DNA from: a bacterium
Lineage (GTDB): Bacteria; Armatimonadota; Zipacnadia; Zipacnadales; UBA11051
NCBI GenBank assembly: GCA_021372615.1
Contig: JAJFUB010000150.1
Span: forward strand, 1 to 64,000
DNA length: 64,000 nucleotides
Reading direction: 5' to 3'
The position numbers were made by a program, and so were the translations under genes. Positions 25,760 through 63,969 of the stretch are shown piece after piece. The notes under the pieces were generated by a model. It did not search any database. It saw only the letters and a program-made list of their open reading frames with translations, and was not told the DNA's origin. The first letter of the stretch is position 1. Every line of letters begins with the position of its first letter.

Positions 25760-26038
25760 AACGGCATCCTCACCCCCAACCCTCTCCCTCGCCCGCGATA
25801 CGGCTGCGGGCTCCGGAGAGGGGAACCACGGGCGACCACATTGTGGCTACGCAGCCACGGAGCGACAACCAACCGCCCCTACCCATCTTCCTCGCCCGCG
25901 ATGCGGCTGCGGGCTCCGGAGAGGGGAACCACGGGCGACCACATTGTGGCTTCGCAGCCACAGAGCGACAAGCGACTGCCCCTCTCCGGAGCGGAACGAA
26001 GTGGAGCGAGGGAGAGGGGAAGGGGTGAGGACGCCGTT
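25760..26038. mobile_element. MITE-like element with terminal inverted repeats (copy 1)
   Basis: A non-coding stretch of about 280 bases that fills the gap between two genes. It starts with AACGGCATCCTCACCCCC and ends with the inverted form GGGGTGAGGACGCCGTT. Inside, an 81-base unit is present twice (25788-25868 and 25891-25971) with few differences. A second copy at 63723-63969 shares both ends, including about 60 nearly identical bases at the right end. No transposase is encoded, so it would have to be moved in trans. The following gene starts only 18 bases after it. Confidence 0.75.
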
Positions 26039-34822: not shown

Positions 34823-34915
34823 GACGGGGGTTGAAACCCCCGCCTATCAGAACCGTCCCTACGGGACGGGGAAGGGGCGTCCCGGAGGGACGCTTCGGCA
34901 AGGCGGGCCCTTCAG
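34823..34915. repeat. cluster of palindromes including class C repeat
   Basis: Three adjacent palindromes: GGGGGTTGAAACCCCC, CCGTCCCTACGGGACGG and further GGGCGTCCC/GGGACGC and GGGCCCTTCAGGGCCC units. The first two match 54926-54975 almost base for base, where they lie inside the polymerase gene. The cluster fills the gap between leuD and der. Confidence 0.82.
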
Positions 34916-34949
34916 GGCCCGATGGGGTCCGGGGGTTGGGATCTGCAGC

Positions 34950-48638: not shown

Positions 48639-49337
48639 ATGAAGACTGTCATCCTGCTGGCCGGCCATGCCACGCGCATGAGGCCGCTCACCACCTACCT
48701 GAACAAAGGCATGATCCCCCTGCGCGGCAAGCCGCTGCTCGAGCACGTCATCGAGCGCCTGCGCAAGCAGGGCTTCACCGACCTGCTCGTGGCCGTCACG
48801 ATGTTCCCCGAGCAACTGCAGGGCTACTTCGGCGACGGCAGCCGCCTGGGCGTGAACATGCAGTATGTCCTGCGCCCGGAGCCTTCGCAGACCGCCGGTG
48901 AGGTCGCCGCCCTGCGCGAGTATCTGGCCGACGACGAGTCCTTTCTGGTACACTATGGTGACATCATCACCGGGCTGAACACCGCCGCCATGGCCGAGCA
49001 GCACCTGCAGACGGGCGCAGCGGCCACGCTCGGGCTTGTGACCAATGTCGAGATCCATACCGGCGTGGCGGAACTCGGCGCCGACGGCCGTGTCATACAG
49101 TTCGTTGAGAAGCCGCCGCTGGACAAGCCCTGCCACGCGGCGGTGAACATCTACAGCCCGCGCGTGTGGGACTACGTCGGGCCCGGCAAGGACTTCGGGC
49201 ATGACGTGATCCCCGCCATGGTCGCCGCGGGCGAGGACGTGCGTGGCTACCTCGACAGAGAGGCATACTGGATGGATGTGGGGAGGCTGTCGGACCTGGA
49301 CGGCGCGGAGGAGTTGCTCGGGAAGCATGAAGTGTGA
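48639..49337 (+). CDS. sugar-phosphate nucleotidyltransferase
   Basis: A 232-residue member of the NTP_transferase family. The nucleotide-binding signature is LLAGHATRMRPLTTYLNKGM; the usual Gly-Gly-x-Gly start is changed to Gly-His-Ala. FLVHYGDIITG gives the metal-binding Asp, and VIQFVEKPP and HAAVNIYSP the sugar-binding loops. It lacks the C-terminal left-handed helix of some relatives. The substrate could be glucose- or mannose-1-phosphate or a product of the kinase gene upstream. ATG 48639 follows AGGAG. Its last codons overlap the region used by the next gene's ribosome site. Confidence 0.87.
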   Translation: MKTVILLAGHATRMRPLTTYLNKGMIPLRGKPLLEHVIERLRKQGFTDLLVAVTMFPEQLQGYFGDGSRLGVNMQYVLRPEPSQTAGEVAALREYLADDESFLVHYGDIITGLNTAAMAEQHLQTGAAATLGLVTNVEIHTGVAELGADGRVIQFVEKPPLDKPCHAAVNIYSPRVWDYVGPGKDFGHDVIPAMVAAGEDVRGYLDREAYWMDVGRLSDLDGAEELLGKHEV

Positions 49338-49347
49338 AGGCAGAAGG

Positions 49348-50775
49348 ATGAAGACGAACGGCACCCACCCCCGCTGCTGCGCAGCGACCCCTCCCCACGG
49401 GGGAGGGGCATGGCGTGGTGACGGCCGTTGGCGTTCGCCTCTTTGCCCTCCCCGCAGGGGAGGGGCATGGCGTGGTGACGGCCGTTGCCGTTCACCCCTC
49501 CCCTGTGGGGAGGGGTCGCCCCGCAGGGGCGGGGGTGGGCCCGTCGTCCTGGCCTGCCTCCTGCTTCTGGTCGCCGGCACCTTCGCCTCCGCCGACATCG
49601 TGTCCGACATCTGCGCGTGTGGCACGTCCAGCCCCAGCTTCGACGGCGTGCTGCACAGCCTGCGCGAACTGCAGTCCAGCCCCCGCGTGACGCTCAGCAA
49701 CCTGGGGGCCTCCCGTCAGGGGCGGCCCATCCCCCTACTCATCGTCCATGACCCCGCTGTCCCTCTCGCGGAGACTGTCCGCCTCTTCATCGTCGCCCGC
49801 CAGCACGGCACGGAGGCTTCCGGTACGGTGGCCTGTCTCGCGCTGGCGCGGCACTTCGCACAGGCCCAGGGCGAAGAGGAGCAGGCGCTCCTGCGGCAGT
49901 TCTCGCTCCTCATGGTGCCCGTCGCCAACCCGGACGGGATGTGCGCCGGGCGGCGCGCCAATGCCGGGGGGGCCGACTTGAACCGCCACTGGGGCGGCAG
50001 CGGCGAGCCGGAGATCAGCGCCATCAAGGCCGCCGTGCGCAAGCACCAGCCCCATGCACTCATAGACATGCACGAGTTGCCGGCCGGATCGGGCAAGCCC
50101 TCGTTCCGCGACAACTTCATCCAGACCATCGGCCGCGACGGGACGCTGAGTGCCGACCTGACGACCGACTGCGCGGCGACGAGTGCGCGCTTGGCCAGTT
50201 GGATGAGCCAGTGCGGGCTGCCGCTGAGCGTGTACTACGACGGCGCGAACGAGAGCCTGAACCTCTGCCATCGGTACTTCGGCCTGGGGGCAGGCATACC
50301 CTCATACCTGTTTGAGGCCAAGTGCGGGTCCGGCCGGCCCTTGGCCAGGCGCGTGCGCTTCCACGTGCTGGGCACGCTCGTCGTGGCCAACTATGCGCTG
50401 CACCGCTACTACCAGCCCGAGGGCCAGGCGACACCGCAGCCGGAGGAGCCGGTGGCCCAGGCCCCGGAGCCGACCACGACTGTGCCCACGACCGTGACCC
50501 TGTCCTCGCCGCGTCCGGAGCAGGTCGCGCGCGGGCAGTTGCCGGTCGTGGCGGACGTCACGGGGCTGCCGCCCGGAGGCACCATCGGCTTCTCGGTGGA
50601 CGGCAAGCTCCGGTCCCTGACGACGGCGGCCCCGCACGAGTACCTCCTGGACACGCTGGGCTACGCGGACGGGCGCCATGAGGTGACGGTTGAGGTGTGC
50701 GATGCGGCCGGACGGAATCTGGGCGCCTCGCGCAGCGTCATCATCGTGGACAACCGGGTGGCGGCGGGCGAATGA
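49348..50775 (+). CDS. M14 zinc carboxypeptidase-like protein with repeat-derived N-terminus
   Basis: A 475-residue protein. The M14 domain has the zinc pair RQHGTEAS (His and Glu), NPDGMCAGRRANAGGADLNR with the substrate Arg/Asn region, IDMHELP with the third zinc His, and LFEAKCGSG with the catalytic Glu. An Ig-like domain follows (about 380-475). The secretion signal (VLACLLLLVAGTFASA) is not at the start: about 65 residues, encoded by a palindromic repeat element (49366-49546), come first. ATG 49348 has GAAGG seven bases upstream; no better start lies nearer the signal. Whether the protein is still exported is uncertain. Confidence 0.82.
   Translation: MKTNGTHPRCCAATPPHGGGAWRGDGRWRSPLCPPRRGGAWRGDGRCRSPLPCGEGSPRRGGGGPVVLACLLLLVAGTFASADIVSDICACGTSSPSFDGVLHSLRELQSSPRVTLSNLGASRQGRPIPLLIVHDPAVPLAETVRLFIVARQHGTEASGTVACLALARHFAQAQGEEEQALLRQFSLLMVPVANPDGMCAGRRANAGGADLNRHWGGSGEPEISAIKAAVRKHQPHALIDMHELPAGSGKPSFRDNFIQTIGRDGTLSADLTTDCAATSARLASWMSQCGLPLSVYYDGANESLNLCHRYFGLGAGIPSYLFEAKCGSGRPLARRVRFHVLGTLVVANYALHRYYQPEGQATPQPEEPVAQAPEPTTTVPTTVTLSSPRPEQVARGQLPVVADVTGLPPGGTIGFSVDGKLRSLTTAAPHEYLLDTLGYADGRHEVTVEVCDAAGRNLGASRSVIIVDNRVAAGE
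49366..49546. repeat. palindromic repeat element inside the M14 gene
   Basis: The stretch opens with CACCCCCGCTGCTGCGCAGC and closes with the inverted GCCCCGCAGGGGCGGGGGTG. In between, a unit of about 65 bases (GGGGAGGGGCATGGCGTGG...) is present twice in direct order and a third CCCCTCCC/GGGGAGGGG palindrome follows. The frame stays open through all of it. Confidence 0.8.
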
Positions 50776-54089: not shown

Positions 54090-57000
54090 CTAGGCGCCCC
54101 AGTTCTTGCTGCGGAAGATGAAGGCCGCGTCGCGCTGATCGCCCTCGTTGATGGGGGCCTTGAGCTCATCCCAGGTCGGCAGGGCCTCGACGCGGTCGGC
54201 GATCACGGACAGGTCGAGTTTGCCCAGGCGGCTGAGCTTGCCCTCGATCATCAGCACCGGCGAGGCAACCACCGCCCGCCCGTACTTCTGGTAGCAGTCC
54301 TCGAAGATAGCCGCATCCACCAGCCCCGTCTCATCCTCCAGGCAGACGAAGATGGCGGTGCGCCCGCTCTTGGTCGGCGGCCGGGCACGGGCCACCACAA
54401 TCCCGGCGATGCGCACCCGCTCCCCGTCCCGGTGGCGATACAGATCGGCGCTGCGCACCACGCCCAGCCGCTTGACCGCACTGCGCCAGAACTTGAAGGG
54501 ATGACTGGTCGTGCTGAGCCCCAGCAGTCGTAGGTCCAGGCCGACGCGCCCGAACTCTGTCTCCGCGTCCAGTGCCGGCAGGGCCTCGGCAAGGCTCTCG
54601 CCTTCCCCCGCGAAGGAGGCGGCGGCCCAATCCAGTTCCTGGGGGGCGCGGCGCCCGCCACGGTCGGTGACGCAACCTGCCGGCAGCGCCGCCAGCATCC
54701 ACATCAGTTCCGCCGGCGAGAGCCCTGTGAAGGCAAAGGCTCGGGACAGGATGAGCGTTTCGACCAGGGGTCGCGGCACGCGGGTACGCCGGCAGAAGTC
54801 GCGCAGCGAGGAGAAAGGCCCCCCCTCGGCACGGGCCTGCAAGATGGAGTCCATGGCGACCTCGCTCATGCCGTAGATGAGCCGCAAGCCGGTGCGGATA
54901 GCGGGGCCGGTGCCGGTGCCGTGAGGCGTCGGGGGCTGAAGCCCCCGCCTGCCAGAACCGTCCCTCCGGGACGGGCCGCTGCCGTCCCCCCCCTCCCCCG
55001 TGGGGAGGGGGCCGGGGGGTGGGACGATGTTCGCCGTGCCCTCCTCCACCGTGAATACCGCCTCACTCCGGTTCACGCACGGTGGCAGCATCGCAATCCC
55101 CAGGCGCTTGGCTTCCTCGGCGACGGTACGCGGCGGGTAGAAGCCCATCGGCTCGGCCGACAGGATGCCGGCCAGGAACTCGGCGGGGTAGTGGGCCTTC
55201 AGGTAAGCCGTCTGGTAGGTAAGGCGGCCGAAGCAGGCCGCGTGGGCTTTGTTGAAGCCATAGGCCGCAAAGCCGGCGATGTCGTCGAAGATGCGGTCGG
55301 CGATGAAGCGATCCACACCCTGAGCGATGGCGCCCCGGACGAACTGCTCCCGCAGCTTCTCCATCTCCCGGTGCGAGCGGTCCGAGGTCATGGCCCGGCG
55401 CAGCAAGTCGCCCTGGCCCAGGGTGAAGCCCGCCACGGCCTGCGCGATCTGCAGCACATGCTCCTGGTAGATGATGACCCCGTAGCTGGTCCTGAGTACC
55501 GGCTCCAGCGCCGGGTGCAGATAGGTGATCGGCTCCAGGCCATGCTTGCGCGCGATGTACGGGCGGATCATGTCCGACTGCACCGGGCCGGGGCGGAACA
55601 GCGAGATGTTGGCGATGATCTCCTCGAACTCATGGGGCTGCGTCCGCCCCAACAGGTTGCGCTGGCCGGGGCTTTCGACCTGGAAGAGGCCAATGGTCTT
55701 CGTCGAGCGCAGGAGGCGATAGGTCGCTGCGTCATCCAGCGGCAGGTCCTCCACGTCCAGGCGGTGGCCCGTGCGCCGCTCGACCTGCGCCAGGCAATCC
55801 GCGATGGCGGTGTGGATGCGCAGGCCCAGGATGTCCATCTTCAGCAGGCCGAGTGCTTCGATGTCATCCTTATCGAAGGCGCTGATGACGATGCCCTTGT
55901 TGGCCAGCTCCAGGGGCATGAGATGCGTGAGCGGCTCCGCGCCGATGACCAGCCCGCCGACGTGGACGCTCAGATGGCGCGGGTAGCCGCTGACCTGGTG
56001 GCATAGCTCCAGGAGCAGGCCTTTGTCGCGGAAATCGAAGGGGGCGTCGCGCACCTCGGGGAGCCGCAGGGCCGCCTCCTCGATCTGTGAGGCGCGAATG
56101 TAGGGAAAGGCCGTGGCCAGGGGCCCCAACTCCGCCTCGGGCAGGCCGAGGGTCTTGCCCAGGTCGCGGATCGCCGCCCGGGCGCGGAAGGTGTTGAGCG
56201 TGCAGACAGCCGCGACGTGCGCGGCGCCATAGCGCTCGTAGACATAGGCGGTCACTTCATCCCGGCGCCGCGCGCAGAAGTCCACATCAATGTCCGGCAT
56301 GCCCTGGCGGTCGGGGTTGATGAAACGCTCGAAAAGCAGCTCATGGGCCAACGGGTCGGCCTGGGTGATGTCGAGAAGATAGCTGAGCAAGGAATCGCCG
56401 GCGGAGCCGCGACCGGTGGCGGGGATGCCGCGACTGCGGGCGAAGCGCACGATGTCCCACACGATCAGGAAGTAGTCACAGAGGCCCTTGGCCTCGATGA
56501 CACTCAGCTCGTGCTCCAGCCTCTGCCCCACCTCGGGAGTGATCTCCCCATAGCGCCACTTGGCGCCGGTATAGCACAGGCGGCGCAGGTAGCGGCGGCT
56601 GTCTTCATCGGGGGCGGGCGGCGGAAAGATCCCCGTGCCGTCGGCGGGCACGGCCTGCAGGTCGAACGCCGGGAGGTGCAGGTGCTCCAGATCCAGCTCC
56701 CAGCCACACCGTTCGGCGATGGCCTCGGTGTGGCGCAACGCCTCGGGCAGATCGGCGAACAGCTCCCCCATCTCCGCCGGCGACTTGAGCCGGTACTCCC
56801 AGTTCACCTTGCGATCCGGATGGGCCTCATCCACGGTGATGTTGTGGCGCAGGCACGTCAGCACGTCCTGCAGGGGCGCCTGGTCGAGCCCGACATAGTG
56901 CACATTGTTCGTCGCCACCAGCGGCAGGCCCAGACGGCCGGCCAGATCCGCGAGGGCATAGCGCAGCCGATGCCGCGGCGGCGGCAGCAGCAGGTGCTGC

Positions 57001-57548
57001 AGCTCGATGAAGAAGTTGCCCGGACCAAAGAGCCCGCGGTAGGTGTTGGCCACCTGTGCGGCGGCGGTGGCCTGGCCGCGTTCGAGCAGTTGGCCGATCT
57101 CGCCACGCTCGCAGCCCGACAGGGCGATCAGATGGGAGGCGTTCTGGCGCAGGTGCTCCTGGGTGAGGCGGGGGTGGTCACGGTCTACCGCGGCGTAGGC
57201 CGGGGCGAAGGGACCGGCGCTTTGCGCCTGGCCCAGTCGCGCAGCGGTGACCAGGCGGCACAGATTGCGGTAGCCCTCGTTGTCTTCGGCCAGCAACACG
57301 AGATGGGGTTCGTAGGGCAGGTCCTGTCCCCCACAGGGCTCGAGGGTGAACTCCACGCCGATGATGGGCTTGACCCCCGCCTGCCGGGCTGCCTGGCAGA
57401 ACCGCACGGCCCCGTACAGACCGTTGTGGTCGGTCAGCGCCAGGGCCTTCATGCCGTAGGCGGCGGCGCTGCGGGTCAACTCCTCTACTGTCGCCGCGCC
57501 GTCAAGCAGAGAGAAGTTGGAATGCACATGCAGATGTGTGAAGGGCAT
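54090..57548 (-). CDS. dnaE2: error-prone DNA polymerase III alpha (DnaE2/ImuC-like)
   Basis: A 1152-residue C-family polymerase: PHP domain (HLHVHSNFSLLDGAATVEEL, intact His residues), palm with GRGSAGDSLLSY and the catalytic PDIDVDF, LLKMDILGLR, helix-hairpin-helix part, and an OB fold whose GIVVARARPPTKSGRTAIFVCLEDETG pattern and short C-terminus are of the DnaE2 type. It would do translesion synthesis after DNA damage. About 45 residues near position 840-885 (from TANIVPPPGPLP to PHGTGTG) are foreign: they are encoded by a palindromic repeat inserted in frame. DUF6504 and an SOS-type promoter lie upstream, supporting a mutasome role. No ImuB is in the window. Confidence 0.9.
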   Translation of the reverse strand: MPFTHLHVHSNFSLLDGAATVEELTRSAAAYGMKALALTDHNGLYGAVRFCQAARQAGVKPIIGVEFTLEPCGGQDLPYEPHLVLLAEDNEGYRNLCRLVTAARLGQAQSAGPFAPAYAAVDRDHPRLTQEHLRQNASHLIALSGCERGEIGQLLERGQATAAAQVANTYRGLFGPGNFFIELQHLLLPPPRHRLRYALADLAGRLGLPLVATNNVHYVGLDQAPLQDVLTCLRHNITVDEAHPDRKVNWEYRLKSPAEMGELFADLPEALRHTEAIAERCGWELDLEHLHLPAFDLQAVPADGTGIFPPPAPDEDSRRYLRRLCYTGAKWRYGEITPEVGQRLEHELSVIEAKGLCDYFLIVWDIVRFARSRGIPATGRGSAGDSLLSYLLDITQADPLAHELLFERFINPDRQGMPDIDVDFCARRRDEVTAYVYERYGAAHVAAVCTLNTFRARAAIRDLGKTLGLPEAELGPLATAFPYIRASQIEEAALRLPEVRDAPFDFRDKGLLLELCHQVSGYPRHLSVHVGGLVIGAEPLTHLMPLELANKGIVISAFDKDDIEALGLLKMDILGLRIHTAIADCLAQVERRTGHRLDVEDLPLDDAATYRLLRSTKTIGLFQVESPGQRNLLGRTQPHEFEEIIANISLFRPGPVQSDMIRPYIARKHGLEPITYLHPALEPVLRTSYGVIIYQEHVLQIAQAVAGFTLGQGDLLRRAMTSDRSHREMEKLREQFVRGAIAQGVDRFIADRIFDDIAGFAAYGFNKAHAACFGRLTYQTAYLKAHYPAEFLAGILSAEPMGFYPPRTVAEEAKRLGIAMLPPCVNRSEAVFTVEEGTANIVPPPGPLPTGEGGDGSGPSRRDGSGRRGLQPPTPHGTGTGPAIRTGLRLIYGMSEVAMDSILQARAEGGPFSSLRDFCRRTRVPRPLVETLILSRAFAFTGLSPAELMWMLAALPAGCVTDRGGRRAPQELDWAAASFAGEGESLAEALPALDAETEFGRVGLDLRLLGLSTTSHPFKFWRSAVKRLGVVRSADLYRHRDGERVRIAGIVVARARPPTKSGRTAIFVCLEDETGLVDAAIFEDCYQKYGRAVVASPVLMIEGKLSRLGKLDLSVIADRVEALPTWDELKAPINEGDQRDAAFIFRSKNWGA
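54926..55022. repeat. class C palindromic repeat inside dnaE2
   Basis: The palindromes GGGGGCTGAAGCCCCC and CCGTCCCTCCGGGACGG (54926-54975) match the intergenic cluster at 34823-34880 nearly base for base, and a CCCTCCCCC/GGGGAGGGGG palindrome follows. The frame of the polymerase passes through it without a stop. Confidence 0.88.
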
Positions 57549-63722: not shown

Positions 63723-63969
63723 AACGGCGTCCTCACCCCTACCCCTCTCCCGCGCGCGGTACGGCTGCGCGCCGGAGAGGGGAACGGCGAACGGCGTCCT
63801 CACCCCGCAGACTGCGTCGCAGTCTGAGCCCTGTCGCTCGCGTCGCTCCGGAGAGAGGAACTCAGATGTCACGTAGCCGCGAAGCCACAACGTGGTCATC
63901 CCAGGCCCCCCCTCTCCGGAGCGGAACGAAGTGGAGCGAGGGAGAGGGGCCGGGGGTGAGGACGCCGTT
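63723..63969. mobile_element. MITE-like element with terminal inverted repeats (copy 2)
   Basis: Opens with AACGGCGTCCTCACCCCTA and closes with the inverse GGGGTGAGGACGCCGTT. The right end shares about 60 nearly identical bases with 25978-26038. The middle part differs from copy 1 and contains other short palindromes such as CAGACTGCGTCGCAGTCTG. No gene is seen from 63649 to the window end. Confidence 0.75.

Follow-up and report, generated by a model that had tools for sequence, protein, structure and literature searches.

Two palindromic repeat families joined in an in-frame insert of a DnaE2-like polymerase gene from a Zipacnadia genome

REPs inside genes have already been published, those in DnaE2 genes included. 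Di Nocera, De Gregorio and Rocco described them in 2013 in many species and found many of them in genes of DNA synthesis and repair, with DnaE2 genes named explicitly as hosts (PMC3733652). The GTAG and CGTC REPs treated there are small palindromic repeats, mostly extragenic, of which some lie in frame, singly or in groups, with clusters that encode up to 43-82 residues (PMC3733652). REPtrons (RAYT/TnpA-REP) join such repeats to an enzyme: a Y1 gene is flanked by the same REP, which carries GTAG at the foot of its hairpin and occurs in dispersed copies and inverted pairs (PMC2817692, PMC3733652). The Rickettsia palindromic elements (RPE), covered in a review of MITEs, are selfish palindromes ~150 bp long that encode a conserved peptide and are translated in frame as part of unrelated proteins (PMC10969869). 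For the most part, palindromes inserted in frame have been regarded as peculiar to Rickettsia, apart from isolated REP examples in other organisms.

Here we describe an in-frame palindromic insert in a DnaE2-like gene, for which the lineage, the repeat families, the link to a transposase and the apparent scale are new. The original prediction for this DNA had cited the RPE as precedent, which holds as far as palindromes read in frame in many proteins are concerned, but the REPs in DnaE2 genes are the closer one (PMC3733652). Armatimonadota is absent from the phyla named in those passages of the 2013 paper on which we draw (PMC3733652), and a limited literature collection yielded no paper on REPs in this phylum.

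The polymerase gene and its insert

The window, a stretch of 64,000 nucleotides on contig C150, comes from a metagenome-assembled genome (G000) of 6.41 Mb in 171 contigs, with a completeness of 96.7% and a contamination of 2.93%. The genome belongs to Candidatus Zipacnadia, or candidate division WS1, which we take to be a lineage of Armatimonadota. On the minus strand of the window, positions 54090-57548 encode a DNA polymerase III alpha-type protein of 1152 residues with Pfam PHP, DNA_pol3_alpha, finger, HHH_6 and OB domains. It stops after the OB fold, unlike the separate full-length replicative DnaE1 on contig C55, which passes the curated DnaE cut-offs; a second DnaE without the C-terminal domain beside a replicative DnaE1 is the arrangement typical of DnaE2. 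A quick tree placed the window polymerase outside the DnaE1 clade, and its best plasmid match was the error-prone polymerase of Thermomicrobium roseum (41%). Since it scored below the curated NCBIfam cut-off for error-prone polymerases (870 bits against 939) and also below the NCBIfam DnaE1 cut-offs, we call the protein DnaE2-like and the gene dnaE2. In DnaE2-like homologues from another family (L038, L039, L041 and L045), 20-130 extra residues were seen at a second loop, around query residue 300.

The insert of 129 bp, or 43 codons, lies at 54900-55028 and is read on the minus strand; as ATC stands at each of its edges, 54897-55025 is an equally valid placement. This 3-bp ATC was considered as a target-site duplication and rejected, because it cannot be told from chance. 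The reading frame is open through EAVFTVEEG-TANIVPPPGPLPTGEGGDGSGPSRRDGSGRRGLQPPTPHGTGTGPA-IRTGLRLIYGM, just as had been described, where TANIVPPPGPLPTGEGGDGSGPSRRDGSGRRGLQPPTPHGTGTGPA comprises 46 residues, ~43 of them extra, and the insert-encoded part of the protein would give the peptide VPPPGPLPTGEGGDG. The whole insert is open in five of six frames. No match to it was found among plasmids.

The extra residues are missing from relatives, as the original prediction expected of homologues. In tblastn searches, the matches of relatives broke off at residue 839 and restarted at 882-884, and in the alignment three proteins of the same family (L024-L026) read VEDGN or VEEGN directly joined to IRVGL, with zero residues between. 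The Pfam HHH_6 match likewise covers 129 residues for 87 profile positions, leaving ~42 extra. In E. coli DnaE the corresponding turn is ~6 residues long (826-831), while the nearest relative (L023) and L031 carry ~24 unrelated residues at the insert site, so this turn accepts variation in length. An AlphaFold2 model with a mean pLDDT of 87.3 puts the insert in the turn of a beta-hairpin, between strands 833-836 and 882-885 and just before the HhH region; residues 839-879 fall below 50, in line with the disordered loop that had been proposed here.

Class C and class B repeats and their link to a Y1 transposase

Local BLAST divided the insert into a class C repeat (~54928-54974, plus strand), a class B repeat that abuts it (~54975-55026, minus strand) and 28 bp left over (54900-54927), a GGTGCC-rich linker with only partial, low-identity matches. 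The ~45 residues had been ascribed to one palindromic repeat followed by another palindrome; the palindromes and the frame stand, and the insert is in fact made of two repeat families.

The class C unit is 47 bp long with two hairpins, at 54930-54947 and 54958-54974 in dnaE2. The copy known from the leuD-der spacer (34826-34872, plus strand) is the same repeat, with 81% identity between 34825-34883 and 54930-54988, and it adjoins an inverted second copy (34877-34921, minus strand) whose stem 1 reads GGGCCC/GGGCCC with pairing kept. Such inverted pairs, a BIME-like dimer layout, occur at two places (C80:44609/44702 and window 34826/34921). Seventeen copies were found in the genome, nine of them within ~20 kb of contig C18; a class C pattern gave 13 matches, with 0 in the reversed control. 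In class C, 99.2% of the helix cells are paired and five pairs in the two helices are changed on both sides, which none of 500 shuffles reached. Judged by ORF context, the coding versus intergenic count that the original prediction had proposed came to 16 extragenic copies, with dnaE2 the exception. Copies on C6, C60 and C80 were tried as intragenic and rejected: their frames are open, but each copy is either ahead of the probable start codon or in an implausible frame. The claim that class C can invade genes is thus borne out by a single copy; other families, class B foremost, enter genes habitually.

Class B is a unit of ~50 bp with its hairpin at 54989-55011 in dnaE2, where this part of the insert is open in all six frames. 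The genome holds 105 exact-stem matches, against 0 in the control. Elsewhere its distribution is patchy: the six further genomes in the family have 0-9 matches each, and two from a different family have 38-43. Three class B hairpins stand in a row at window 49388-49514, upstream of a zinc-carboxypeptidase-like gene, where they make the predicted ORF 49243-50775 longer at its N-terminus. The window also contains, at 25773-26025 and 63742-63955, a 103-bp tandem pair beside a palindromic repeat of 47 nt, a further copy of which (96%) occupies 63909-63955. On C18 (L182-L184, ~17.4-40 kb), class C and class B repeats lie between consecutive genes of a phage-like block with terminase, head, head-tail adaptor and tail matches, and the terminase ORF has a long repeat-rich insert.

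Class C was predicted to be a repeat family of this lineage's own. It is not exclusive to this lineage, as 11 copies are spread over several contigs in the sister genus (G001). Five other members of the family yielded none apart from one weak match. With the tighter pattern, which missed the G001 copies because their linker is two bases longer, 54 more distant genomes gave one weak match.

In G001, a Y1 gene with the HUH motif DHIHVLV has class C units of the sequence CGGGGGTTGAAACCCCCGTCTGGGAGGGAAGCGTCCCTGCGGGACGC on either side, as in a REPtron, although NCBIfam names the enzyme as IS200/IS605 family. The source genome differs here: PF01797, the Y1 transposase domain, matches at seven places, several of them within inverted-repeat arrays of their own, and no class C flanks were found around these seven genes. 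Within the source genome, the proteins most similar to the G001 enzyme are encoded on C56 and C40 (34-35% identity), and the REP flanking the C40 gene has the same hairpin-GCCT-linker-hairpin layout. Given its position on either side of this IS200/RAYT-type gene in G001, class C is best interpreted as a REP element, and its sequence features agree: it is a dispersed short palindrome, mainly extragenic, with conserved hairpins and inverted pairs. That class C is mobilised by a Y1 (IS200/RAYT-type) enzyme is a well-founded inference from the same arrangement.

Class C resembles the GTAG and CGTC REPs in being a small palindromic repeat, mostly extragenic and in frame in a DnaE2-like host. It differs from them in having two hairpins and in lacking the standard unpaired GTAG or CGTC tag (PMC3733652); in the 17-copy alignment GTAG is absent from both hairpin feet. 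In the dnaE2 copy CGTC happens to precede stem 1. Membership of the CGTC superfamily, which is defined by an unpaired CGTC tag and an 8-9 bp stem with complementary A-T residues at the first two positions, was rejected, as the tag of class C varies (GTC, GGC, CGC, GAC) and its stem 1 starts with C-G and G-C pairs. An assignment of the repeats to RPE was likewise rejected: insertion in frame is common to both, but the units here are ~50 bp, GC-rich, of several families and read in different frames in different genes.

In-frame repeats in mutS and other genes

For a wider survey, 1.61 Mb, or about a quarter of the genome, was sampled, 0.34 Mb of it picked for holding class B. With at least four members required per family, by which many intragenic stem-8 hairpins were dropped as chance, the sample contained 17 hairpin families with 288 members. 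Forty members were in frame in ORFs with a coding signal on both sides, in ~30 ORFs, two of which look like chance, leaving ~28 ORFs with in-frame REP hairpins. Among the five largest stop-poor families, 36 copies were in frame and open, six were out of frame and three had a stop. The 1.27 Mb outside the pieces chosen for class B held ~16 such ORFs, which suggests ~80 genes with in-frame REP inserts genome-wide, an estimate that comes from a codon-usage score rather than gene annotation.

Full homologue alignments covered dnaE2 and mutS. The mismatch-repair gene mutS (L278:1850-4753 on G000:C24, minus strand) has two in-frame inserts, one near residue 190 and the other near residues 443-487, and at both sites the repeat-encoded residues are absent from alignable relatives. 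The first is a class B REP, identical to that of dnaE2 at 46 of 47 positions and read in the same frame (PPPGPLPTGEGG). At the second site the mutS of G013, from another family (L333), carries a different insert, GSAGVSPASGGGGAGETPTLP. This peptide resembles what would be encoded by the GCCGGCGTCTCGCCGGC repeats on either side of a Y1 gene on contig C146 of the source genome.

Inserts were also found in unrelated genes (IorA, GHMP kinase, sulfatase, DUF58, GH20 and phage terminase). The Pfam match exceeds its profile span by about the length of the insert in the GHMP kinase (96 versus 85), an NAD-binding domain (175 versus 161), DUF58 (233 versus 215) and GH20b (143 versus 122).

Origin of the insert and its meaning

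We consider it highly probable that a REP composite of class C and class B transposed into a surface beta-hairpin turn of the DnaE2-like polymerase and was kept as harmless; the insert is thus most likely selfish DNA that the protein tolerates in a surface loop. Class C would move, or have moved, through the action of a Y1 transposase (IS200/RAYT-type) on its hairpins, and insertions would hit genes at random. Copies that break genes were presumably lost, and those that survive would be GC-rich, nearly stop-free, divisible by three in length and situated in a loop. Since the repeats are indeed GC-rich and nearly stop-free, selection among random insertions would leave behind copies that are in frame and sit in loops. 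In dnaE2 the residues would be translated and form a disordered loop that has no function of its own; we found nothing in favour of such a function, which the new residues might nevertheless have.

A different possibility is that the loop was co-opted, with its Gly/Pro/Arg-rich residues contacting DNA or a partner and altering the polymerase, and that the decoration of mutS reflects selection on mutation rate. The class B element shared in the same frame by dnaE2 and mutS, the second mutS insert, the different insert of G013 at that second loop and the many REPs reported in repair genes (PMC3733652) would fit this idea, which we nonetheless regard as improbable, because the many unrelated genes listed above carry inserts too and the residues, for which disorder is predicted, represent only one of the translations that the repeat can give. 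It is slightly less probable again that the decorated gene is a dying pseudogene with a frame still open by luck. The separate replicative DnaE1 may make the gene dispensable, but all 1152 codons are open, the PHP, catalytic, HhH and OB regions are intact and the alignment shows no other lesion; judging from this intact frame and the conserved motifs, the polymerase is probably still functional. The least credible alternative is an assembly or binning artefact that wrongly joined a repeat stretch into the gene: the bin is fragmented and has 2.93% contamination, assemblies typically break at REPs, and contig ends hold several of the class B copies, but the frame is kept on both sides in dnaE2 and in the 36 copies of five families, the domains downstream of the insert are 70% identical to the nearest relative, and the copies differ by compensatory changes.

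We see an even chance that several REP families act in this uncultivated lineage as routine extenders of proteins, with in-frame inserts in the ~80 genes estimated for this one genome, a scale like that of Rickettsia or above it, and that, from genus to genus, different families of repeats have made use of the same loops in conserved enzymes such as MutS. This unusual load of decorated genes is the interesting part of the finding. A genome from an uncultivated phylum that combines several repeat families with dozens of decorated genes, and whose sister genus offers a candidate transposase, would allow the lengthening of proteins by selfish DNA to be tested, as well as which loops accept such DNA and whether a decorated mutS or dnaE2 works.
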